NCBI RefSeq assembly: GCF_017963645.1
Contig: NZ_JAGMWN010000001.1
Coordinates: 930,001-994,000, forward strand
From: Marivibrio halodurans
Lineage (GTDB): Bacteria > Pseudomonadota > Alphaproteobacteria > UBA8366 > Aestuariispiraceae
DNA length: 64,000 nucleotides
Direction of reading: 5' to 3'
Shown: piece by piece, positions 1 through 11,481 of the stretch
How the letters are laid out: every line of letters starts with the position of its first letter
Position numbering within the stretch: position 1 is the stretch's first letter
The notes under the pieces: generated by a model
Seen by the model: only the letters and a program-made list of their open reading frames with translations
The model's database searches: none
Told to the model about the DNA's origin: nothing
Position numbers and translations under genes: made by a program

Positions 1-25
1 ATTTGGTACAGGCCGTGTGACGGCC

Positions 26-1066
26 CTACAAGACACCGAAAGCGCGCGCCGCGACGAAGAGCGCGAGGAGGAAGAGCGTCTCTCCCGCCAGCAGGAAGCA
101 GGCCGCCGGCCCGATCCGCAGCAGGCTTTTCAGGTTCGTCTTCAGTCCCAGCGCCGCCACCGCGAAGACAAGGCATCCGCCGGCCGCCGTGGCGAGCGCA
201 TCCGCCAACAGCGCCGGTATCAGGCCCGCGCTGTTCAACAGGAAGAGCGCGACGAAGGCGACAAGGAAAAGTGGCGGCCGCGCGACGCCGTGCGTGTCCC
301 GCCGATCCGCCGCCCCGGCACCATCCTCGTCCGCGCGCCCACGGGCCCAGAGCGCGATCAGCAGCACCGTCGGCAGCAACAGCAGGACCCGCACCAGTTT
401 CACGAAGATCGCGAGTTCGCCCGCCTCCTCGGAGATGGTGAAGCCCGCGCCGGCCACCTGCGCCACATCATGAATGGTCGCGCCGATCAGCACCGCCGCC
501 TCGACATCGTCATAGCCAAGCGCGCGGGCAAGCGCCGGATAGGCGACCATCGCGATGGTGCTGAGCGTCGTGACCCCCAGAACCGCGAAGGCCGTATCGC
601 GGTCCCGGTCCCGATGGTTCGGTAGAACGGCCGAAATCGCCATCGCCGCCGACGCGCCGCATATCGCCGTCGCGCCTCCCGTCAGCACGCCGATCTCGGG
701 CCGCAGCTTGAGAAATCGCGCGACGAGGGCGCCCAGCAGGATCGTCACCGGCACCGCGATCGCCACCGCGACGATCGGTGCATAGCCGATGGCCGAAAGC
801 TGTTCGATCGACAACCGCGCGCCCAGCAGCGCGACACCGAAGCGCAGCACCCGGCGCGCGGCGAAATCGATACCGGCCCGGCATTCCTCGTTCTTCGACA
901 GGAAATGAACCGACGCGCCGAGCAATAGCGCCATCAGCATCACCGGCACGACATATTGCCGGGCCAGGAAGGTCGCCGAAAGCGCGACCAGCGTGACGGT
1001 CAAAAGCCCGGGCACCAGCCGGTACCCGGCGCCGAACGATCGTGAGAGGGTGGAACCAACCATCAT
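26..1066 (-). CDS. YeiH-family putative sulfate exporter / UPF0324 membrane protein
   Basis: Integral inner-membrane protein of the Cons_hypoth698 (YeiH) family, about 345 aa, the usual family length. It is almost wholly hydrophobic, with some ten membrane segments. The central stretch LTGGATAICGASAAMA and the later GATIHDVAQVAGAG are the family's conserved signatures. I start it at the ATG pair at 1063-1066, because longer readings run into the end of the biotin carboxylase gene, whose stop lies 10 bases upstream. The two genes may be co-transcribed. Members are called sulfate exporters, but transport substrates are rarely proven, so the family call is firm and the substrate is not. Confidence 0.85.
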   Translation of the reverse strand: MMVGSTLSRSFGAGYRLVPGLLTVTLVALSATFLARQYVVPVMLMALLLGASVHFLSKNEECRAGIDFAARRVLRFGVALLGARLSIEQLSAIGYAPIVAVAIAVPVTILLGALVARFLKLRPEIGVLTGGATAICGASAAMAISAVLPNHRDRDRDTAFAVLGVTTLSTIAMVAYPALARALGYDDVEAAVLIGATIHDVAQVAGAGFTISEEAGELAIFVKLVRVLLLLPTVLLIALWARGRADEDGAGAADRRDTHGVARPPLFLVAFVALFLLNSAGLIPALLADALATAAGGCLVFAVAALGLKTNLKSLLRIGPAACFLLAGETLFLLALFVAARAFGVL

Positions 1067-1076
1067 GCCGGACGCA

Positions 1077-2441
1077 TCACCCTGCCCGGCCGAGAAGCTT
1101 GGGCAGGAATTCCCGTTCCATCCAGCGCGTATCGACCGCGCCGGCGCGGAACCCTTCGTCCCGCAGCATCGCGCGGTAGAGTGGGAGGGTGGTCGAGACG
1201 CCCTCGACCTCGAAGGCCTCGATCGCATCCGCCGCGCGGGCCAGCGCATCCGCCCGGTCGGACCCGTGAACGATCAGCTTCGCCATCATGGAATCATAGA
1301 AAGGGCTGATCTGGCCGTCCTGATAGACCGCGCTGTCGCAACGCAACCCCTCCCCCTTCGGCGGGCGCCAGGCCGTCAGGCGGCCGGGGGTGGGGCGGAA
1401 ATCAGCGCGCGGATCCTCCGCATTGACGCGGAATTCGACCGCCGCGCCCTGAATCGGCGGTGGCCCGTCGGCGAAGGACAGCGCCTGCCCGTCCGCCACC
1501 CGCAACTGCTCCTGGATCAAGTCCAGGCCGGTGATCATCTCGCTCACCGGATGCTCCACCTGGATGCGGGTATTCATCTCGATGAAGAAGAACTTGTCGG
1601 TGTCCGGCTCGTAAAGGAACTCCACCGTCCCGGCATTGACGTAGCCGACCCCCTTGGTCAGCCGCACCGCCGCCTCGCAGAGCGCCTCGCGCGTCTCGGC
1701 CGAAAGGGCGGGCGACGGCCCCTCCTCCACCAGCTTCTGATGGCGGCGCTGAACGGAACAATCACGCTCCCACGCATGGGCGGCGGCGCCATGGCTGTCG
1801 CCGAACACCTGAACCTCCACATGACGCACGCGGGAGAAGTAACGCTCCATATAGATCGCACCGTCGCCGAAGGCGCTTTCCGCCTCCGCATGCGCTTGCC
1901 GGAAGAGACCGGGCAATTTTTCCGCCGTCTCCGCGACGCGCATACCGCGCCCGCCACCGCCCGCGCGAGCCTTCAACAGCAACGGGAAGCCGATTCCCCC
2001 GGCCTCCGCCTCCGCCGAGGCGGCATCGTGGAACACCCCTTCCGACCCCGGCACTACCGGCACGCCAAGCTCGACCGCCGCCTCGCGCGCGCGGGCCTTG
2101 TCGCCCATGCGATCGATCACCTCCGGCGACGGCCCGATGAAGGTCAGCCCCCGGTCGGCCACCTTGCGCGCGAAGCCCGCATTCTCCGATAGGAACCCAT
2201 AGCCCGGATGAACCGCGTCGGCGCCCGTGCGCTCCGCGACATCCAGCAGGATGGCCTGGTTCAAATAACTTTGGCCCGGCGAAGGCGGACCAATCTCCAC
2301 CGCCTCGTCGGCCGCGAAAACATGGGGCGAGGCCGCGTCGGCGGAGGAATGCACCGCCACCGTCTCCAAACCCGCGCGCCGGCAAGCCCGAATGATCCGC
2401 AGCGCGATTTCGCCTCTGTTAGCGATTAACACACGTTTCAT
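1077..2441 (-). CDS. Biotin carboxylase (AccC-like) subunit
   Basis: ATP-dependent biotin carboxylase, 454 aa, which carboxylates biotin on a carrier protein. It opens MKRVLIANRGEIALRII and shows HPGYGFLSEN, the glycine-rich ATP loop KARAGGGGRGMR, and FIEMNTRIQVEHPVSE near residue 280, all hallmarks of the family. I start at the ATG at 2441, preceded by a GGAAGGGGATGG Shine-Dalgarno region; an upstream in-frame ATG would add 14 unrelated residues. A carrier gene lies divergently at 2998, so the two may pair. No carboxyltransferase subunit is in view, so the acyl substrate is unknown. It is one of two biotin carboxylases here; the other is within Pyc. Confidence 0.92.
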   Translation of the reverse strand: MKRVLIANRGEIALRIIRACRRAGLETVAVHSSADAASPHVFAADEAVEIGPPSPGQSYLNQAILLDVAERTGADAVHPGYGFLSENAGFARKVADRGLTFIGPSPEVIDRMGDKARAREAAVELGVPVVPGSEGVFHDAASAEAEAGGIGFPLLLKARAGGGGRGMRVAETAEKLPGLFRQAHAEAESAFGDGAIYMERYFSRVRHVEVQVFGDSHGAAAHAWERDCSVQRRHQKLVEEGPSPALSAETREALCEAAVRLTKGVGYVNAGTVEFLYEPDTDKFFFIEMNTRIQVEHPVSEMITGLDLIQEQLRVADGQALSFADGPPPIQGAAVEFRVNAEDPRADFRPTPGRLTAWRPPKGEGLRCDSAVYQDGQISPFYDSMMAKLIVHGSDRADALARAADAIEAFEVEGVSTTLPLYRAMLRDEGFRAGAVDTRWMEREFLPKLLGRAG

Positions 2442-2566
2442 TTTCCATCCCCTTCCAAACCGCGCCGTGGATCGATTGTGCATCCCGTTCTTCTACGTCA
2501 TACTCAATTCCAGCCAAGTTTGAAAGGGCACGATGAATCACGGTAACCTCTTGTTAGGAGGGATTT

Positions 2567-2905
2567 TTGAGAGACGAAGAGAAAAAGGCGCTACGCGCGG
2601 CCATGGGAGGGTCGGCTAATTCCCAAATCATTGTGAGCGTCGACGGAGGCGAATGTTACCGTTACCAAAACGATCCATTCGCCTTCCGCGGACGCGCCGT
2701 TCGCGCCCCGGACGCGGGACGGATTCGTTGGCATGCATCCCCCGGCCCGATTTCCAGTGGCGCGCATCTGGCCGACGTGATCGTCGGCGGGGAAGCGCGC
2801 GCCGTGACGGCACCGGCGGACGGTCATCTCGGCCGGCCGCTGACGCCCGGGGATATGTGGGTTGACCATGGAGCCGCCCTGGCGGTGCTCTACGACGCCG
2901 ATTGA
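2567..2905 (+). CDS. Biotinyl/lipoyl-domain-like protein lacking the modified lysine
   Basis: Small protein of 112 aa with a TTG start, supported by the strong TAGGAGGG ribosome site five bases before it. From about residue 43 it resembles a biotinyl domain: VRAPDAGRIRW, then a strand ending LADVIVGGEARAVTAPADGH, then LTPGDMWVDHGAALAVLY. These match the order of the carrier gene just downstream (MGAPMTGTFYR, IEVMKLFTTIEAPYAGR, AENAETVQADQPLFEIV). Where the carrier has the biotinylated EVMK turn, this protein has DVIVGG and no lysine. It could be a non-biotinylated structural or assembly partner of the carboxylase. The fold call is by eye and the function is not established. Confidence 0.7.
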   Translation: MRDEEKKALRAAMGGSANSQIIVSVDGGECYRYQNDPFAFRGRAVRAPDAGRIRWHASPGPISSGAHLADVIVGGEARAVTAPADGHLGRPLTPGDMWVDHGAALAVLYDAD

Positions 2906-2908
2906 ATG

Positions 2909-2938
2909 GAGCCGGATAGAGTCGAGCCGGATAGAGTC
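2909..2938. repeat. Two perfect 15-base tandem repeats
   Basis: The unit GAGCCGGATAGAGTC occurs twice in direct succession just after the stop of the lysine-less biotinyl-like gene and before the carrier gene. It is non-coding. No role is evident; it may simply be replication slippage. Confidence 0.9.
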
Positions 2939-2997
2939 GAGAAGGAAGCCGCCCGGCCGTGACCGGCGCGGCCCGTTACGAGGAGGAACACCGAAAG

Positions 2998-3477
2998 ATG
3001 TCGCTCACCTACGAGGATGTGGATGAGATCCTGCGCCTGCTGGACGGCGCGAAGGCGGACCTGACGTTGGAGTCGGGAGATTTCCTATTGGAGGTTCGTC
3101 GCGGCGGCGCCCCGACCGCCCACCCGGCCACCCCACCGCGTGCCGGCGAGGCGAGCCCTCCGACGCGATCACCCGCCACGTCCGAGACCGCCGAGGTGAG
3201 CGCCCCCTCCGAGGCGGCACCCGCGGATGCCTCGGACGCCAATGTGATGGGAGCGCCGATGACCGGGACGTTCTACCGCTCGCCTTCCCCGCAAGACCCG
3301 CCATTCGTGGAGGAAGGCCAGGAGGTAGAGGCCGGGGCCTCCCTCGGCTTGATCGAGGTGATGAAGCTCTTCACCACGATCGAGGCGCCCTATGCCGGCC
3401 GTGTCGTTCGCGTGCTCGCCGAGAATGCGGAAACGGTCCAGGCGGACCAGCCGCTCTTCGAGATCGTCCCGCTCTGA
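2998..3477 (+). CDS. Biotin carboxyl carrier protein (AccB-like)
   Basis: Biotin carrier of 159 aa. It has an N-terminal helical region (TYEDVDEILRLLDGAKADLTLES), an Ala/Pro/Thr/Ser-rich linker at about residues 38-75, and a C-terminal biotinyl domain with the IEVMKL motif; the lysine to be biotinylated is about residue 123. This is the classic AccB layout and size. The start at 2998 has AGGAGG twelve bases upstream; an earlier in-frame ATG has no such site. It follows the lysine-less biotinyl-like gene by 92 bases and faces away from the biotin carboxylase gene. It likely serves that carboxylase rather than Pyc, which carries its own biotinyl domain. Confidence 0.92.
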   Translation: MSLTYEDVDEILRLLDGAKADLTLESGDFLLEVRRGGAPTAHPATPPRAGEASPPTRSPATSETAEVSAPSEAAPADASDANVMGAPMTGTFYRSPSPQDPPFVEEGQEVEAGASLGLIEVMKLFTTIEAPYAGRVVRVLAENAETVQADQPLFEIVPL

Positions 3478-3483
3478 ACGACG

Positions 3484-3515
3484 GAGGGGAACCCCGGATA
3501 ACGGGGCTCCCCCTC
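3484..3515. terminator. Hairpin between convergent genes
   Basis: GAGGGG-AA-CCCCG, loop GATAA, then CGGGG-CT-CCCCCTC forms a stem with one internal mismatch, placed between the stop of the carrier gene and the stop of the convergent aldolase gene. It is likely a two-way terminator, although no clear T-run follows. Confidence 0.5.
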
Positions 3516-3530
3516 GCCGTTCGGCAGGCG

Positions 3531-4343
3531 TCAGGCCAGCATGTCCGGCTGGCTCTGAAGCAGGTGGTCCAGGATCGGCTGGAAATGCAGCCAGCCGATA
3601 TATTCGCTGCCGACATGCTCCCGGCTATAGCGGGCCTTGTCGTCCGGCACGCGGATCGACTGGGAGCCGCTGGCATCGATGGCCAACTGCTGCTGGCAGC
3701 ACCGCTCCAGCGCGATGAACCAGAAGGCGGCGGCGTCGATGCTGTGACGGCTGGCGGTGAAGAGACCGTGATTCTGGTGGATCGCGGCCTTCACGCCCTT
3801 GAAGGCGGCGGCGACGTCGGTGCCGGCGGCGTTCTCGACCGCGACCTTCCCGGCCTCCTTCCCGATGACCACATGGTCCTCGAAGAAGGCGCAGGCATCC
3901 TGCGTGACGGGCTCCAGCGCGCGGCCGGTCGCCGCGAATGCGGTGCCGTAGACCGTATGGGCATGGCACATCGCCAGGATGTCCGGGTGCGCGTCATGCA
4001 CCGCCGCGTGCAGCACGAAGCCCGCGCGGTTCACCGCGTGGCGCCCCTCGACGACCGTGCCTTCGTGATCGACGAGGATCAGGTTCGACATCCGAACCTG
4101 GGCGAAATGGACGGCCATGGGATTGGTCCAGTAGAGATCCGGCCGCTCGGGGTCGCGGATCGTCAGGTGACCGGCGAAGCCGTAGTCCAACCCATGCTGG
4201 GCGAAGGCCCGGCAGGCGGCGACCAGCCGGCGCTTGCGGTCCTCCCGCTCCTCGGCCGGGGTGGCGTAGTTCGGCTCCTCCGGGAAGATCAGATCCTGCT
4301 GTTCGGGCTGATAGATCGATTTGCGCTGGCCGAGATCAAGCAT
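3531..4343 (-). CDS. Class II aldolase/adducin-family protein
   Basis: Protein of 270 aa with a class II aldolase/adducin domain. The central CHAHTVYGTAFAATGR and the later HQNHGLF give the histidines that bind the metal in this family. The family includes sugar-phosphate aldolases and decarboxylases; this one cannot be assigned a substrate. I start at the ATG at 4343, because CCGGAGGACCCCA places an ideal GGAGG site before it, whereas the earlier in-frame ATG at 4403 has none. It lies 146 bases downstream of dnaB on the same strand but has its own likely promoter and operator in the gap, so it is probably regulated separately. Confidence 0.85.
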   Translation of the reverse strand: MLDLGQRKSIYQPEQQDLIFPEEPNYATPAEEREDRKRRLVAACRAFAQHGLDYGFAGHLTIRDPERPDLYWTNPMAVHFAQVRMSNLILVDHEGTVVEGRHAVNRAGFVLHAAVHDAHPDILAMCHAHTVYGTAFAATGRALEPVTQDACAFFEDHVVIGKEAGKVAVENAAGTDVAAAFKGVKAAIHQNHGLFTASRHSIDAAAFWFIALERCCQQQLAIDASGSQSIRVPDDKARYSREHVGSEYIGWLHFQPILDHLLQSQPDMLA

Positions 4344-4425
4344 TGGGGTCCTCCGGTCGGCGCGCTTCGGCGCCTTTGTCACATTGATTCGTTTCGTCGA
4401 CATTTTCGCCGATCATTTCTGAATA

Positions 4426-4455
4426 CTGTATACAAAGATAAAGCGCGAAACGCAA
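4426..4455 (-). promoter_or_regulatory. Candidate promoter with operator over the -10 element
   Basis: Read on the minus strand, TTGCGT (4450-4455) is 17 bases from TATACA (4427-4432). The -10 lies within TGTATACA (4427-4434), a perfect palindrome of the kind bound by GntR-family repressors. The site is about 85 bases before the aldolase start. It is a by-eye prediction. Confidence 0.45.
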
Positions 4456-4489
4456 CCGACCCCGCGTCACGGCCGACGCCACCGTCCGC

Positions 4490-6070
4490 TCAGTACATCC
4501 CCTCGTCGTGATGGCGGTCGAGGTCGGAGAAGACGGTGAACTCGCCGGTGAACTGCAATTCGACGGTGCCGACGGGCCCGTGGCGCTGCTTGGCGATGAT
4601 GACTTCCGCGATATTGCGGGCCTCGGCCAAGCGCTGGTTATGGCGCTCCACGCGCTCCTGATATTTCTCCGGCGTCTCGTTGCCGCGCTGCTCGGGATGT
4701 TCCTTTTCCAGGTAATATTCCGGGCGATAGATGAAGGTGACGACGTCCGCGTCCTGCTCGATCGAGCCGGATTCACGCAGATCGGCCAGTTGCGGGCGCT
4801 TGTCCTCGCGGTTCTCCACCTGACGGGAGAGCTGGGAGAGCGCCAGGACCGGCACCTCCAGCTCCTTCGCCAAGGTCTTCAGCCCGCGCGTGATCTCGGA
4901 CACCTCGTTCACGCGGCCCTCGACCCGCTTGTCCACCGGCGGCTGGAGGAGCTGGAGATAGTCGACCACGATCATATGCAGCCCGTGCTGGCGCTTCACG
5001 CGCCGCGCGCGCTGGCGCAGCCCGGTGATCGACAGGGCGGGCGTGTCGTCGATATAGAGCGGCAGCTTGGAGAGTTCCTCCGCCGCCTGGGCGACGCGGT
5101 CGAACTCCTGCGGGTCGATCTCGCCCCGGCGCATCTTGTCGGAGCTGACCCGCGCGCGCTCCGCCATGATACGGGCGGCGAGCTGCTCTGCCGACATTTC
5201 GAGCGAGAAGAAGAGGACATGCCCCCCCTCCTCGATCACCTGCCCGTCGTCATTCTCGATCCGGCGATAGGCCTTGGCCGCGTTGAACGCCATATTGGTG
5301 GCCAGCGCCGTCTTACCCATCGCCGGACGCCCCGCCAGGATCAACAGATCGGAGGGGTGAAGGCCGCCCAGCATGTTGTCGATATCGCGAAAGCCCGAGG
5401 TGACGCCGACGACGTGCCCCTCGCGCTGCATCGCCTTCTCGACCGACGCGACGGCGAGGCTGGACGCCTTGCCGATGGCGATGACGCTGCGATCGGCCTC
5501 GCCCGTGACGGCGAGGTCGTAGAGGCGCTGCTCCGCCTTCTCGATCTGCCGCTCGGCGGTGAAATCCAGGTCGCTGTTGTCGTAGGCGTCGTTGACCACA
5601 TCCTCGCCGAGGCCGATCAACTCCCGCTTCATGAAGAGATCGCGGACCGTCTCGGCATATTGGCGGGCATTGATGATCGTCACCAGACCGGCATCGAGCC
5701 GATAGAGATAGTCGCGCCCGCCGATCCCCTTCAGCAGTTCGTCCTCGTCCACGATATGACCGAGGGACGTCGCGTTGGCGACCTGCGCGCGGTCGATGAT
5801 GGACCGGATGAGCTGGAACAGCCGCTGATGTTCCGGCGCGTAGAAATGGCGCGGCTCCAACAGGTCGCCGGCGGCCTCGTAGGCCCGGTTGTTGCGCAGA
5901 ATCGCGCCGAGCAGCGCCTGCTCCACCTCGATATTATGCGGCGGGTGGCGCAAGGCGGGCGCGTTCGCATCCTCCTCGCGCAGATGGGTGACATTGTCGA
6001 GGGGCGCGTCGGTCGTGGGGGTGGCTGGTGTGTTCATGATCCCAGTCATAGCAGAGTCGCCCGGGAACAT
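4490..6070 (-). CDS. dnaB: Replicative DNA helicase DnaB
   Basis: Hexameric helicase that unwinds DNA at the replication fork and recruits primase. The 526 aa protein has the N-terminal DnaB domain (PHNIEVEQALLGAILRNN to about residue 150), a linker, and a RecA-like ATPase domain with Walker A GRPAMGKTALA and Walker B MIVVDYLQLLQ. The length matches alphaproteobacterial DnaB and there is no intein. The start is uncertain: in-frame ATGs at 6070, 6049 and 6037 all lack a well-spaced ribosome site, and only the first ten or so residues are affected. Its neighbours are unrelated catabolic genes. Confidence 0.97.
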   Translation of the reverse strand: MFPGDSAMTGIMNTPATPTTDAPLDNVTHLREEDANAPALRHPPHNIEVEQALLGAILRNNRAYEAAGDLLEPRHFYAPEHQRLFQLIRSIIDRAQVANATSLGHIVDEDELLKGIGGRDYLYRLDAGLVTIINARQYAETVRDLFMKRELIGLGEDVVNDAYDNSDLDFTAERQIEKAEQRLYDLAVTGEADRSVIAIGKASSLAVASVEKAMQREGHVVGVTSGFRDIDNMLGGLHPSDLLILAGRPAMGKTALATNMAFNAAKAYRRIENDDGQVIEEGGHVLFFSLEMSAEQLAARIMAERARVSSDKMRRGEIDPQEFDRVAQAAEELSKLPLYIDDTPALSITGLRQRARRVKRQHGLHMIVVDYLQLLQPPVDKRVEGRVNEVSEITRGLKTLAKELEVPVLALSQLSRQVENREDKRPQLADLRESGSIEQDADVVTFIYRPEYYLEKEHPEQRGNETPEKYQERVERHNQRLAEARNIAEVIIAKQRHGPVGTVELQFTGEFTVFSDLDRHHDEGMY

Positions 6071-6152
6071 CTCCCGAACGCGTCCTGTGGATAGCGAGGA
6101 TATCGGGTGCGGGAAGATACGGAAAGAGAAGCGCCCGATGCTGGGGGGGCGC

Positions 6153-7781
6153 TCACGCCGCCGCCCGCGCCTTCCGGTCGGCGCGGATCATTGCCGCGCC
6201 CTTCTCCGCGATCATCAGGGTCGGACTGTTGGTGTTGCCGCTGGTGATCGTCGGCATTATGGAGGCATCGACGACGCGCAGCGCCTCGATCCCGTGGAGG
6301 CGCAGGCGTTCGTCCACGACCGCGGCCTCGTCGGCGGCCGGCCCCATCTTGCAGGTGCCCACGGGGTGGAAGATCGTGCTGGCGATATCGCCAGCGGCGC
6401 GGGCCAGCGCCTCCTCCCCCTGGATATCCGCGCCCGGCTTGAACTCCCGCGCGTTATAGGCCTGGAGCGCTGGCTGCTCCGCGATGCGGCGGGTCAGCAT
6501 CAGGGCCCGCGCCGCCACCTGCCGGTCGGCCGGATCGGAGAGATAATTCGGCCGGATCACCGGCTTCGCCATCGGATCGGGGGACCGCAGGCGCACATGC
6601 CCCCGGCTCTGCGGGCGCAGATTGCACACGCTGGCGGTGAAGGCATCGAAGCGGTGCAGCGGATCGCCCAGCCGGTCGGTGGACAGCGGCTGCACGTGAT
6701 ATTGCAGGTTCGGCGTCTCCCGCGAGGGATCGGACTTCGCGAAACAGCCGAGTTGGCTCGGCGCCATGGAAAGCGGACCGCTGCGCTTCAAGGCATATTC
6801 CAGCGCCATGCCCGCCTTGCCCACCAGACTGTTGGCCAGCCGGTTGAGGGTGCGCACCCCGTCCACCTTGAAGGCCGCGCGTACCTGAAGGTGGTCCTGC
6901 AGGTTCTCCCCCACCCCGGGCAGGTCGTGGCGCGTTTCCACGCCATGTTCCGACAACACCGCGCCCGGGCCGATGCCGGATTGTTGCAGCAGAACGGGCG
7001 AGGCGACGGCGCCGGCCGCCAGGATAAGCTCCCCGCCGACCTCCACGCGGGACGGCACGCCGTCGCGCAGGAAGTCGAGCCCCGTGACCCGCCGCCCGTC
7101 GAGGCGGATGGCGGTCGCTTGCGCCTTGGTCATGACGGTCAGGTTGGGGCGTCCCATCGCCGGTTTAAGATAGGCCTTGGCGGTCGACCAGCGCACGCCG
7201 CCGCGTTGGTTCACCTCGAAATAGCCGACGCCCTCATTGTCGCCGCCGTTGAAATCGTCGGTTGCCGGAATTCCGGCCTGAACGGCGGCGTCGCGCCAGG
7301 CCTCCAGGATCTCCCACCGCAGGCGCTGCTGTTCGACCCGCCATTCACCGCCGGCGCCGTGCAGGTCGCTGCCGCCCTTATAGTGATCCTCGGACCGCCG
7401 GAAATAGGGCAGAACCTTGTCCCAGTTCCATCCCTTGGCGCCGGTCTGGGCCCAATGATCGTAATCGCGCGCCTGACCGCGCATATAGATCATGCCGTTG
7501 ATCGAGGAACAGCCGCCCAGCACCTTGCCGCGCGGATAATCGAGCGAGCGGCCGTTCAACCCCGGCTCCGCCTCCGTGCGGAAGCACCAGTCGGTACGCG
7601 GGTTGTTCATGGTATAGAGATAGCCGACCGGAATATGAATCCAGAGATAATCGTCGCGCCCGCCCGCCTCCAGCAGCAGGACGCTGACCTCCGAATCCTC
7701 GCTCAACCGATTGGCCAGAAGACACCCGGCGGTGCCCGCACCGACGATCACATAATCGAATCGTCCGATCGAATCCGTCAC
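6153..7781 (-). CDS. GMC-family FAD oxidoreductase (choline/alcohol dehydrogenase-like)
   Basis: FAD enzyme of 542 aa that oxidises an alcohol to an aldehyde or ketone. DYVIVGAGTAGCLLANRLSE is the FAD-binding motif, PRGKVLGGCSSINGMIYMRG is the GMC signature, and HPVGTCKMG with SGNTNSPTLMIAEKGA supplies the C-terminal catalytic His/Asn region. I start at a GTG at 7781, which has GGGAGG six bases before it; an upstream ATG would add 46 residues without homology. It is closest in style to AlkJ/BetA-like dehydrogenases, and the substrate cannot be read from the sequence. It is divergent from pyc. Confidence 0.9.
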   Translation of the reverse strand: MTDSIGRFDYVIVGAGTAGCLLANRLSEDSEVSVLLLEAGGRDDYLWIHIPVGYLYTMNNPRTDWCFRTEAEPGLNGRSLDYPRGKVLGGCSSINGMIYMRGQARDYDHWAQTGAKGWNWDKVLPYFRRSEDHYKGGSDLHGAGGEWRVEQQRLRWEILEAWRDAAVQAGIPATDDFNGGDNEGVGYFEVNQRGGVRWSTAKAYLKPAMGRPNLTVMTKAQATAIRLDGRRVTGLDFLRDGVPSRVEVGGELILAAGAVASPVLLQQSGIGPGAVLSEHGVETRHDLPGVGENLQDHLQVRAAFKVDGVRTLNRLANSLVGKAGMALEYALKRSGPLSMAPSQLGCFAKSDPSRETPNLQYHVQPLSTDRLGDPLHRFDAFTASVCNLRPQSRGHVRLRSPDPMAKPVIRPNYLSDPADRQVAARALMLTRRIAEQPALQAYNAREFKPGADIQGEEALARAAGDIASTIFHPVGTCKMGPAADEAAVVDERLRLHGIEALRVVDASIMPTITSGNTNSPTLMIAEKGAAMIRADRKARAAA

Positions 7782-7955
7782 CCGTAACCTCCCGATCGGG
7801 GCACCCGCGATGGGGCCACCCTTCCTTTTGCCGGGCAGGATAGCGCGCGCGACCGGCCACGGACAACATGGGGGGCGGCGCGCCCACGCCGATCCGTGTC
7901 GCGCGGCCGCCAGCGTCATTCATTCGACGCGCTACCTTCCGCGAACGCGGTGCCA

Positions 7956-7971
7956 TTTCGCACCTGCGAAA
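7956..7971. promoter_or_regulatory. Inverted repeat upstream of pyc
   Basis: TTTCGCA-CC-TGCGAAA has seven-base arms and lies about 50 bases before the pyc start, in the space between pyc and the divergent GMC gene. It is a possible operator; I cannot name the protein that would bind it. Confidence 0.35.
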
Positions 7972-8022
7972 AGATGCGATAAGCTTCACCCGACAAGTCT
8001 CATAACCGGAACAGGGACATCA

Positions 8023-11000
8023 ATGGACGGCACCCCCATCAAGAAGCTGCTGATCGCCAACCGCAGCGAGATCGCCATCCGCATCATGCGCGCGGCGACG
8101 GAACTCGGCATCGCCACCGTCGCCGTCTTCACGGAGGAGGACAAATACGCCCTCCACCGCTTCAAGGCGGACGAAAGTTACCTGATCGGCCGGGGGCTGG
8201 GGCCGGTAAAGGCCTATCTGGCGATCGAGGAGATGCTGCGCGTCGCGCGGGAGGCGGGCTGCGACGCGGTGCATCCGGGCTATGGCTTCCTGTCGGAGAA
8301 TCCGGATTTCGCGGAAGCCGCGATCGCCGACGGCCTCACCTGGGTCGGCCCGCCGCCCGACGTCATGCGCGCCGTCGGCAACAAGGTCGCCGCGCGCAAG
8401 GTCGCGGAGGCGGCGGAGGTGCCGGTGATGCCCGCGACCGGTCCCCTGCCGGACGATCTGGACGAAGCGAAGACGCTCGCCGACAAGATCGGCTATCCCG
8501 TCATGCTGAAGGCGAGTTGGGGCGGCGGTGGCCGCGGCATGCGCGTGATCGAAAGCGCGGAGACATTGAAGGAACAGGTCGAGGCCGGCCGGCGCGAGGC
8601 CGAGGCCGCCTTCGGCAATGGCGAGGTCTATCTGGAGAAGCTGGTCGTCAAGGCGCGGCATGTGGAGGTCCAACTCCTCGGCGACATGCACGGCACCATC
8701 GTCCATCTGTGGGAGCGCGACTGCACCGTGCAGCGCCGCAACCAGAAGGTCGTGGAACGCGCGCCCGCCCCATACCTCACCCAGGAGAGGCGGGAGGACC
8801 TCTGCCGGTCCGGCGTACGCCTCGCCCGGCAGGCCGGCTATGTGAATGCCGGGACGGCCGAATTCCTGATGGATGCGGAAACCGGGCGTTTCTATTTCAT
8901 CGAGGTCAATCCGCGCATCCAGGTCGAGCATACGGTCTCCGAGGAGGTGACCGGCATCGACATCGTGAAGGCGCAGTTGATGATCGCCCAGGGTGCGCGG
9001 ATCGGCGACCGGGACGATTCCGGCGTGCCCGCGCAGGCGGATATCCAACTCGACGGGCATGCCCTGCAATGCCGAATCACGACGGAGGACCCGGAAGCCA
9101 ATTTCGTCCCCGATTACGGCCGCATCACGGCCTATCGCGGGGCGACGGGTTTCGGCATACGGCTCGACGGCGGCACGGCCTATTCGGGCGCGGTGATCAC
9201 GCGCTATTACGATTCACTGCTGGAGAAGGTCACCGCCTGGGGCTGGAGCCCGGAGGTCGCGGTGCGCCGCATGGACCGCGCGTTGCGCGAATTCCGCATC
9301 CGGGGCGTGGCCACCAACCTCGTCTTCGTCGAGAACCTGATCAATCACCCGAAGTTCCTGGCCGGCGACTACACCACGCGTTTCATTGACCAGACGCCGG
9401 AACTGTTCGATTTCCCGCGCCGCCAGGATCGGGCGACCAAACTGCTCCAATTCATCGGCGACGTCACCGTCAACGGCAATCCGGAGGTGAAGGACCGCCC
9501 CCGCCCGTCCGACCACGCCTTGGCGCCCGTGGTCCCGACCAATTTCGACATGCTGGGCACCCCGCCGGAGGGAACGCGCACTCTGCTCGACCGGCTGGGG
9601 CCGGAGGGATTCGCCCAATGGATGCTGGACGAGCAGCGCGTGCTGATCACCGACACGACGATGCGCGACGCGCATCAGTCCTTGCTGGCCACGCGCATGC
9701 GCAGTTACGACATGGTGAAGGTGGCCGACGCCTATGCGCGCGGATTGCCGGAGCTTTTCTCGCTCGAATGCTGGGGCGGGGCGACCTTCGACGTCGCCAT
9801 GCGCTTCCTCGACGAGTGTCCCTGGGACCGGTTGCGCGCGATCCGGGAGCGGGTGCCGAATATCCTGTTGCAGATGCTGCTGCGCGCCTCCAACGCCGTC
9901 GGCTACACCAATTATCCGGACAATGCGGTCCGGTATTTCGTCCAACAGGCCGCCGATAACGGCATGGACCTGTTCCGCGTGTTCGATTCCCTGAATTGGG
10001 CGGAGAACATGAAGGTCGCGATCGAGGCCGTTCTGGAGACCGGCAAGCTCTGCGAGGCGGCGATCTGCTATACCGGCGATCTGTTCGACGAGGGACGGCC
10101 GAAATACGACCTCGACTACTATGTCGCGCTTGCCCGCGAATTGAAGGGTCAGGGCGCGCATATCCTGGGCATCAAGGACATGGCGGGTCTGTGCCGGCCA
10201 CGCGCGATCGACACCCTGGTCCGCGCGCTGAAGGATGAGACCGGCCTGCCGATCCATTTCCATACCCACGACACCAGCGGCGCGGCCGCGGCCAGCGTGA
10301 TCGCGGCCGCCGAGGCCGGGGCGGATGCGGTGGACGCGGCGATGGACAGCCTCTCCGGTCTCACCTCCCAGCCCAATCTGGGCTCGATCGCCATGGCGCT
10401 GGCCGACACGCCGCGCGCCCCGGGCCTAGACCCGGCCACGGTGCGCGCCTTCTCCGACTATTGGGAGGCGGTGCGCCAGCAATATCGCGCCTTCGAGAGC
10501 GATTTGCGCGCCGGCGCCTCGGAGGTCTATCTGCACGAGATGCCGGGCGGCCAGTTCACCAACCTGAAGGAACAGGCCCGCGCCATGGGGCTGGCGGAGC
10601 GCTGGCACGAGGTGGCGCGCACCTATGCCGAGGTCAACTGGATGTTCGGCGACATCGTGAAGGTGACGCCGAGCTCCAAGGTAGTGGGCGACATGGCACT
10701 CTCCATGGTCTCCAGCGGCCTGACGGTGGCGCAAGTGGAGGACCCGGCGCACGACACCAGCTTCCCCGACTCCGTCGTCGCCATGCTGCGCGGGGAGCTG
10801 GGCCAGCCCCCGGGCGGCTGGCCGGAAGCGCTGCGGAAGAAGGCGCTGAAGGGCGAGAAACCCTTCACCGACCGGCCGGGCAAGCACCTGAAGCCCGTCG
10901 ATCTGGAGGCCGAACGCACAGCGGCCGCCAAGGCGGCCGGAGAGGAGATCGACGCCGCCGACCTCGCGTCCTACCTGATGTATCCGAAGGTCTTCACCGA

Positions 11001-11481
11001 CTTCGCCAAACGCCGGCAGGAAACGGGGCGCCTCGACGTCGTGCCGACGCCCGTCTTCTTCTACGGCATGGAGCCGGGCGACGAGGTCACGGTCGAGATC
11101 GAGAAGGGCAAGATCCTCGTCATTCGCTTGCTGACCGTGGCGGAGCCTGACGAGGCGGGCCAACGCGAGGTCTTCTTCGAATTGAACGGCCAACCGCGCA
11201 TGGTGCGCATCGCCGACGCCAAGCTGGCCGAGAAGAGCATCGCGCGGGAGAAGGCCGATCCCGACCAGCCGGGCCACGTCCCCGCCCCCATGCCCGGCAT
11301 GGTCGCCAGCCTCGCGGTATCGGAAGGGCAGAAGGTGAAGGCCGGCGATATCCTCATGACGCTGGAGGCGATGAAGATGGAAACCGCCATCACCGCCCCC
11401 GTCGCCGGCACGGTGAAGCGCCTGACCGTCAAGGCGGGCGGGCAGGTCGACGCGAAGGACCTTGTGGCGGTGATCGGATAG
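8023..11481 (+). CDS. pyc: Pyruvate carboxylase
   Basis: Single-chain biotin enzyme of 1152 aa that makes oxaloacetate from pyruvate, bicarbonate and ATP to refill the TCA cycle. Biotin carboxylase fills about residues 5-460 (LLIANRSEIAIRIM, KASWGGGGRGMR, FIEVNPRIQVEHTVSE). The carboxyltransferase starts near 540 with ITDTTMRDAHQSLLATR, followed by the PYC/OADA domain and a C-terminal biotinyl domain with LEAMKMET, lysine about residue 1118. The length and domain order are those of the alpha4-type enzyme. I start at the ATG at 8023, which opens MDGTPIKKLLIANR; the ribosome site is weak. The gene is intact and converges on a LysR gene. Confidence 0.97.
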   Translation: MDGTPIKKLLIANRSEIAIRIMRAATELGIATVAVFTEEDKYALHRFKADESYLIGRGLGPVKAYLAIEEMLRVAREAGCDAVHPGYGFLSENPDFAEAAIADGLTWVGPPPDVMRAVGNKVAARKVAEAAEVPVMPATGPLPDDLDEAKTLADKIGYPVMLKASWGGGGRGMRVIESAETLKEQVEAGRREAEAAFGNGEVYLEKLVVKARHVEVQLLGDMHGTIVHLWERDCTVQRRNQKVVERAPAPYLTQERREDLCRSGVRLARQAGYVNAGTAEFLMDAETGRFYFIEVNPRIQVEHTVSEEVTGIDIVKAQLMIAQGARIGDRDDSGVPAQADIQLDGHALQCRITTEDPEANFVPDYGRITAYRGATGFGIRLDGGTAYSGAVITRYYDSLLEKVTAWGWSPEVAVRRMDRALREFRIRGVATNLVFVENLINHPKFLAGDYTTRFIDQTPELFDFPRRQDRATKLLQFIGDVTVNGNPEVKDRPRPSDHALAPVVPTNFDMLGTPPEGTRTLLDRLGPEGFAQWMLDEQRVLITDTTMRDAHQSLLATRMRSYDMVKVADAYARGLPELFSLECWGGATFDVAMRFLDECPWDRLRAIRERVPNILLQMLLRASNAVGYTNYPDNAVRYFVQQAADNGMDLFRVFDSLNWAENMKVAIEAVLETGKLCEAAICYTGDLFDEGRPKYDLDYYVALARELKGQGAHILGIKDMAGLCRPRAIDTLVRALKDETGLPIHFHTHDTSGAAAASVIAAAEAGADAVDAAMDSLSGLTSQPNLGSIAMALADTPRAPGLDPATVRAFSDYWEAVRQQYRAFESDLRAGASEVYLHEMPGGQFTNLKEQARAMGLAERWHEVARTYAEVNWMFGDIVKVTPSSKVVGDMALSMVSSGLTVAQVEDPAHDTSFPDSVVAMLRGELGQPPGGWPEALRKKALKGEKPFTDRPGKHLKPVDLEAERTAAAKAAGEEIDAADLASYLMYPKVFTDFAKRRQETGRLDVVPTPVFFYGMEPGDEVTVEIEKGKILVIRLLTVAEPDEAGQREVFFELNGQPRMVRIADAKLAEKSIAREKADPDQPGHVPAPMPGMVASLAVSEGQKVKAGDILMTLEAMKMETAITAPVAGTVKRLTVKAGGQVDAKDLVAVIG

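Follow-up and report, generated by a model that had tools for sequence, protein, structure and literature searches.

The window, i.e. the whole stretch of 64,000 nucleotides that was analysed, holds an open frame of 112 codons, p112, which lies between a biotin carboxylase gene and the gene of a biotin carboxyl carrier protein (BCCP). Its C-terminal part resembles biotinyl domains at the sequence level, and glycine takes the place of the lysine that carries biotin. Tentatively, we read p112 as a non-biotinylated relative of BCCP that may serve as a non-catalytic partner, for assembly or regulation, of an accessory carboxylase. The reading starts from four observations: the frame, the missing lysine, a biotinyl pattern beyond chance, and the gene neighbourhood.

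Features of the p112 locus

The features to which the text refers are the following.

26..1063, minus strand: PF03601 (Cons_hypoth698) gene, Pfam E 6e-66, downstream of accC on the same strand.
1077..2441, minus strand: AccC, biotin carboxylase (PF00289, PF02786, PF02785, PRK08591), divergent from p112 and BCCP.
2547..2561, plus strand: hairpin CCTCTT-GTT-AGGAGG, then GATTTTTG; reported by a terminator scan; perfect 6-bp stem that would mask the p112 Shine-Dalgarno sequence.
2556..2561, plus strand: Shine-Dalgarno-like AGGAGG, 5-nt spacer to the p112 TTG.
2567..2905, plus strand: p112, 112 aa, TTG start, stop TGA at 2903-2905; from the open reading frame, alignment A2, shuffle and real-segment tests and the coding model.
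2786..2791, plus strand: codons of G74-G75, placed on M-K of the biotinylation motif in MAFFT alignment A2.
2906..2962, plus strand: 18-codon ORF MEPDRVEPDRVEKEAARP, read by eye, directly after the p112 stop in the same frame.
2998..3477, plus strand: BCCP with intact IEVMKLF motif, PF00364 and PRK07051 above cut-off; the frame is also open from GTG 2959.

The gene directly downstream of p112, on the same strand, encodes a normal carrier. BCCP scored 62.8 bits against PF00364 (cut-off 22.1) and 88.4 against PRK07051 (cut-off 87), and with 108.1 bits it stayed just under the cut-off of TIGR00531 (115.2). Divergently from p112, accC encodes a protein scoring 625.5 bits against PRK08591 (cut-off 597), and biotin carboxylases of the PDB match residues 2-443 of its 454. 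No carboxyltransferase gene was recognised adjoining this accC/BCCP pair. A preliminary description of this DNA had claimed a biotinyl-like frame, lacking the lysine, in the neighbourhood of a normal carrier gene and a biotin carboxylase gene, and the open reading frame, alignment A2, the shuffle and segment tests given below and the family matches bear this out.

Similarity of p112 to biotinyl domains

The biotinyl-like part of p112 comprises residues about 42-110. For comparison, 42 candidate biotinyl domains were extracted from the fetched loci, and 41 were kept after one false match had been dropped. The mean semi-global score of p112 against these domains was 51, compared with 32 ± 3.9 for shuffled versions (z = 4.9, reached by 0 of 1000 shuffles). 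When real 112-aa segments of the source genome were scored in the same way, p112 obtained z = 5.0 and the best segment 3.55, so that 0 of 158 came up to it; proteins with an xMK biotinylation-type motif had been excluded beforehand from this control and from the larger one (n = 341) mentioned below. By sequence comparison, the C-terminal part of p112 thus matches biotinyl domains beyond chance.

Other methods gave weaker signals. With hhalign, p112 obtained a probability of 2.5% and a local score of 16.6, which none of 200 shuffles reached; in a larger test 6 of 800 shuffles did so, as did 3 of 341 real segments. Against the neighbouring BCCP alone, shuffles were as good in 108 of 2000 cases for the whole protein and in 133 of 2000 for the domain, and an HMMER profile of the 41 domains did not list p112 at E ≤ 1. 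Since the semi-global tests pass and these three are weak, the similarity appears to be spread over the whole domain and to lie at the edge of detection. Searches of Pfam (E ≤ 10) and NCBIfam (E ≤ 1) with p112 returned no family, hence neither PF00364 nor TIGR00531, and nothing significant was found among PDB sequences, the one match (E 0.51) being an unrelated hydrolase.

The absence of a family match and the hhalign scores reached by shuffles and real segments favour a rival explanation according to which the p112 frame is not a gene at all: it would be leader or spacer of the BCCP transcript, the 'Shine-Dalgarno' sequence would belong to a hairpin resembling a terminator or attenuator, of which it forms the 3' arm, and the resemblance to biotinyl domains would be due to chance. 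The semi-global tests, which neither a shuffle nor a real segment passed, speak against it, and we consider it unlikely.

In alignment A2, p112 residues 60-112 can be followed along the neighbouring BCCP, interrupted by a single gap close to the end. Here AVRAPDAGRIRWHASP of p112 stands against VMGAPMTGTFYRSPSP of BCCP, and the thumb stretch is absent as one block. D70-V-I-V-G-G75 falls on L-I-E-V-M-K of BCCP; thus G74-G75 lie on M-K and p112 has glycine at the position of the biotinylated lysine, just as the preliminary description had it when it saw DVIVGG in place of the EVMK turn. In alignment A1, prepared without the thumbed BCCPs, the first half was aligned differently and G74-G75 were still placed on M-K. 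p112 has lysine at residues 6 and 7 and nowhere else, and there is no xMK biotin-accepting lysine. The BADC proteins of plants, to which we return below, carry GG in the same turn. Identity in A2 was 24% to the neighbouring BCCP and 18-27% to the other ten rows.

The N-terminal 42 residues were compared with 21 AccB N-termini, from which a motif filter had dropped the window's own BCCP and that of genome G459. Because 257 of 2000 shuffles were as good, a full AccB architecture including the AccB N-terminal domain was rejected.

The absence of the thumb as one block counts in favour of the main rival to the partner reading, a decaying BCCP duplicate that is still open, has lost lysine and thumb, is under no selection and has no function. 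This is somewhat unlikely in our judgement: the fully open frame follows a strong Shine-Dalgarno site, both half-domains retain their AP..G motifs in A2 even though the lysine is gone, and, as the similarity to the neighbouring BCCP is not beyond chance, there is no sign that this gene was duplicated recently.

Predicted structure

Modelled alone by AlphaFold, p112 obtained a pLDDT of 41.6 and a pTM of 0.29. Foldseek found no match to this alignment-free model at E ≤ 0.001; ten carboxylase chains among its best 50 had TM-scores of 0.14-0.24 and were given no weight. When A2 was supplied, pLDDT rose to 81.0, 67 of the 112 residues reached at least 90, and the means of ten-residue blocks were 92-97 from residue 41 to 110. 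With this model 18 Foldseek rows had E ≤ 0.001, and carboxylases or their carriers accounted for 14. The first thirteen rows of VIA (Z 13.0 to 12.0, rmsd 1.0-2.7 over 66-74 residues) were all carboxylases or their carriers. A2 is itself made of biotinyl proteins, so the model is circular, indicating that p112 is compatible with the fold and not proving that it has it. A predicted fold unlike biotinyl domains, which the preliminary description had named as evidence against its reading, did not appear in so far as the A2-fed model matches carboxylase carriers; the sequence taken alone gave no confident model. According to the models, p112 would be compatible with a biotinyl (barrel-sandwich) fold, predicted with confidence only when biotinyl sequences are supplied.

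The remaining 4 of the 18 Foldseek rows were cyanophycin dipeptide hydrolase or desuccinylase-like proteins, and BesA and efflux adaptors also occur in the VIA list, all with the A2-fed model. Together with the PF03601 gene downstream of accC, these matches would suit a barrel-sandwich protein outside any carrier role, which might bind a small ligand or link AccC and the PF03601 protein. Such a use of the fold is very unlikely, as carboxylases and their carriers dominate the Foldseek rows, the p112 gene adjoins that of a carrier, and Pfam and NCBIfam gave no sequence link to a non-carrier family.

Start site, spacer and coding statistics

The coding part of p112 extends over 2567-2902 (+), i.e. 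112 open codons. The preliminary description had also assigned the frame its own ribosome site. AGGAGG does precede the TTG by 5 nt, but the same bases form the 6-bp hairpin in front of a T run. On both strands of the whole window there are 58 AGGAGG sites, giving 10 placements in which a start codon follows at a distance of 4-10 nt. Since AGGAGG lies within a hairpin that is followed by five T and flagged by the terminator scan, it could represent either a weak terminator or a ribosome site hidden by base pairing.

A hairpin with a T run at the very start of p112 agrees with the view that the frame is only BCCP leader. Against that view, the terminator scan of 2380-3560 found one candidate where shuffles let 0.9 be expected, and an Rfam search of 2300-3100 gave no match at gathering score, for which reason a known RNA element at the locus was rejected. 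No promoter-like site was found in 2380-3560, and the 101-nt hairpin region was not unusually stable when its folding was compared with shuffles (z +1.4). The structure at 2547-2568 could be a translational switch, a weak terminator or a chance product.

Downstream, the stop of the 18-codon ORF overlaps GTG 2959 of the BCCP frame (GTGA, 2959-2962). From the sequence, the arrangement of p112, 18-codon ORF and GTGA would fit translational coupling. By eye, the spacer 2906-2962 also contains a tandem 15-nt repeat (EPDRV repeat), for which a repeat finder gave another register, at 80%.

Coding potential was evaluated with a three-periodic model trained on 49 ORFs of the source genome, picked by length and G+C pattern and not by annotation. 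The p112 frame (+0) was the best of the six with +0.6 bits relative to a non-periodic model; the next-best, an antisense frame, had -14.4 bits and thus lay 15 bits below. The score of p112 was reached by none of 1000 random open stretches (mean -63, sd 16), and both results argue against a frame that is not a gene. However, 115 of 122 real gene fragments scored better than p112 and 7 of 122 scored as low, which is in line with a decaying duplicate.

The codon positions gave a different picture. G+C contents at positions 1/2/3 were 0.74/0.54/0.69 in p112 compared with 0.71/0.52/0.84 in BCCP, so that the peak of p112 is at position 1, and the filter that selects genes by G+C pattern preferred the antisense frame just mentioned (92 aa, 2591-2869) to p112. 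In a cruder codon test p112 outscored 13% of the pieces taken in frame, and 20% of those taken in a wrong frame came up to its score. The training set of that test had included opposite-strand shadow ORFs, and it is superseded by the 49-ORF model. The peak at position 1, the choice of the filter and the wrong-frame pieces count in favour of the non-gene explanation; altogether, the coding statistics of p112 are mixed.

Distribution of p112

The preliminary description had named a lack of conservation in relatives as evidence against its own reading, and this is what the searches gave. In the set of relatives 1 of 39 genomes matched, and in the overlapping order set 1 of 43, in both cases the source genome itself; in the one same-genus genome examined there was no match genome-wide. 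In the class sample 50 of 385 genomes, the source genome included, had matches at E ≤ 0.05. The best of them, at locus L064 (E 9.6e-5), overlaps, in a different reading frame, a 212-aa ORF of its own strand, and it was therefore taken as a chance match. The others (E 0.001-0.05, many of them fragments or stop-bearing) were judged to be chance matches by E-value and genome count. Among GTDB contigs 221 stretches showed the pattern and none was a p112 relative by tblastn, nor did plasmids yield a homologue; from both collections records of the own or a very near genome were possibly omitted. Thus, across the genomes sampled at genus, family, order and class level, the GTDB contigs and the plasmids, no homologue was seen, and p112 is a bacterial singleton in the genomes sampled. 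The lack of an orthologue in relatives, order, class sample and GTDB contigs favours the decaying duplicate.

The preliminary description had also proposed a search for the gene beside other accC/accB-like pairs. The scan for lysine-less genes covered 6664 frames from 131 loci (L002-L132, for the most part no farther than 1.5 kb from the match) and the window. It gave 115 profile hits at E ≤ 1, one of which, a weak one (E 0.13), had no xMK anywhere in its frame. None was seen at the 131 loci by this profile scan, from whose hits p112 itself is absent and which is therefore unable to find its like. phmmer with p112 over the 6664 frames returned its own copies and matches taken as chance, the best again at L064 (E 2.4e-6).

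Comparison with known non-catalytic subunits

Although the preliminary description regarded this kind of protein as new, it is not entirely so, because non-biotinylated BCCP relatives, the BADC proteins, are known from plants (passages of PMC11926652). As described there, BADC are 25-30% identical to BCCP, lack the AMKL motif and have been proposed both as inhibitors and as assembly glue contacting the BCCP thumb in plastid acetyl-CoA carboxylase; which of the two roles applies is disputed in plants. The relevant parts of PMC11926652 and PMC7835884 describe BADC as unique to plants or to the plant htACCase, with three isoforms in Arabidopsis.

Like BADC as portrayed in these passages (PMC11926652, PMC7835884), p112 has no biotinylation motif and is encoded together with BC and BCCP genes; it would also be a BCCP relative at about 25% identity. 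Its identity (24%; 18-27%) is close to the range for BADC and BCCP, with the similarity to the neighbouring BCCP alone being within chance. Unlike BADC with its three plant isoforms, p112 is a bacterial singleton, and it is likened to BADC by published description. As p112 comes from a prokaryote assembly and BADC is described as unique to plants, we call it 'BADC-like' and not BADC. No molecule named BADC was among the best 60 of 138 matches of a PDB profile search, and no bacterial BADC-like protein was found among the open-licence PMC papers listed by the literature searches.

With BCCP/AccB (TIGR00531, PF00364) p112 shares the biotinyl-domain pattern and a gene position next to accB and accC, whereas it differs by the lack of lysine, thumb and any TIGR00531 or PF00364 match and by an N-terminus not similar beyond chance. 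A third system is the epsilon subunit AccE of actinobacterial acyl-CoA carboxylases, which p112 resembles as a putative small non-catalytic subunit; AccE promotes assembly (PMC7835884). According to this paper, the partner of AccE in Thermobifida is the carboxyltransferase (B) subunit and not the biotin-bearing A subunit; the paper also draws a parallel between BADC and the small non-catalytic AccE of a bacterial acyl-CoA carboxylase. Unlike AccE, p112 has no recognised carboxyltransferase gene beside it and no AccE family match in Pfam or NCBIfam. Pfam holds a model of the AccE family.

The BADC precedent implies that a lysine-less BCCP relative can be a working subunit. On the partner reading, p112 would be a real small protein in which a biotinyl (barrel-sandwich) domain without thumb and lysine comes after a helix and a beta-hairpin. 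It would be expressed jointly with the downstream BCCP gene, and the biotin carboxylase would come from the divergent accC. Through its biotinyl-like face p112 might then dock on BCCP or on AccC, either replacing a real carrier or sitting next to one, and the docked protein might steady the BC-BCCP subcomplex or limit its occupancy, as proposed for plant BADC. That p112 is translated, folds in this way, is co-expressed and binds, and in which direction it acts, is what we infer here. For a carrier mimic speak the kept fold pattern, the lost lysine, a GG turn compatible with a tight hairpin and the adjoining presumed partners, while the absent conservation, the mixed coding statistics and the dependence of the fold model on its input speak against it. 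A role as putative decoy or structural carrier subunit, as first suggested, is plausible. More doubtful is the specific version in which p112 would be the bacterial counterpart of BADC: a dedicated carrier mimic that is not biotinylated, shares an operon with its own accessory BCCP, has a regulatory or scaffolding function towards a biotin carboxylase and evolved separately from the plant proteins.

If the partner reading is true, a one-gene bacterial counterpart of BADC beside its own carrier and carboxylase would offer a simple system for the question of glue or inhibitor, and it would demonstrate that bacteria, too, can give rise to carrier mimics. A bacterial BADC-like protein would be new, non-biotinylated BCCP relatives being already known in plants. 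Should p112 be a decaying duplicate, it would illustrate no more than the death of a spare BCCP gene.

Relatives of the accC/BCCP pair and variability of the locus

BCCP matched 12 loci in GTDB contigs at 31-46% identity, none of them close. AccC had an identity of at most 57% among the matches listed, and the best in the same-genus genome was 53%. At strict thresholds (E 1e-158 and 1e-160) AccC was found in 2 of 384 other class-sample genomes and 2 of 397 other phylum-sample genomes. In the tree the window AccC joins that of G459 with support 100/99; both are long branches and the join may be false. The window BCCP shares 40% identity with the C15 copy of the source genome and 38% with the BCCP of G459. 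Going by these sequence comparisons, the accC/BCCP pair of the window is itself isolated.

By these searches the source genome has three other accB-accC sets, C17, C15 and C21. AccC of C17 groups with the AccC of relatives in the tree, C15 has an OadA/PycB-type carboxyltransferase recognised by motif, and C21 adjoins a gene whose first residues look like LamB/YcsF. In G459 the accC/BCCP pair is followed by a PYC_OADA/HMGL-type carboxyltransferase, which by analogy hints at the type of partner that the window pair might have.

In the same-genus genome dnaB and the aldolase gene are adjacent as in the window, followed by alanine racemase, and in this 3.8-kb dnaB-aldolase locus accC, BCCP, p112 and the PF03601 gene were not seen. 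Such variability of the accC-accB region suits the decaying duplicate. The racemase gene alr lies beside the aldolase gene in G001 and about 350 kb away in the window genome; the neighbourhood is thus rearranged, and a simple insertion next to the aldolase gene was rejected on the same ground. A tRNA-borne island was likewise rejected, as no tRNA was present within window positions 1-8000.

The PF03601 gene has two further paralogues in the source genome and no match in the same-genus genome. Loci L083 (C15 of genome G000) and L101 (G459) contain a three-gene set of accC, BCCP (EVMKLF or DVMKLY) and a separate OadA/PycB-type carboxyltransferase. Within the window, 4.3 kb from the accessory BCCP gene, a 1223-aa frame at 7810-11481 (+) matches AccC in its N-terminal and BCCP in its C-terminal part; we take it to be probably a single-chain pyruvate carboxylase.
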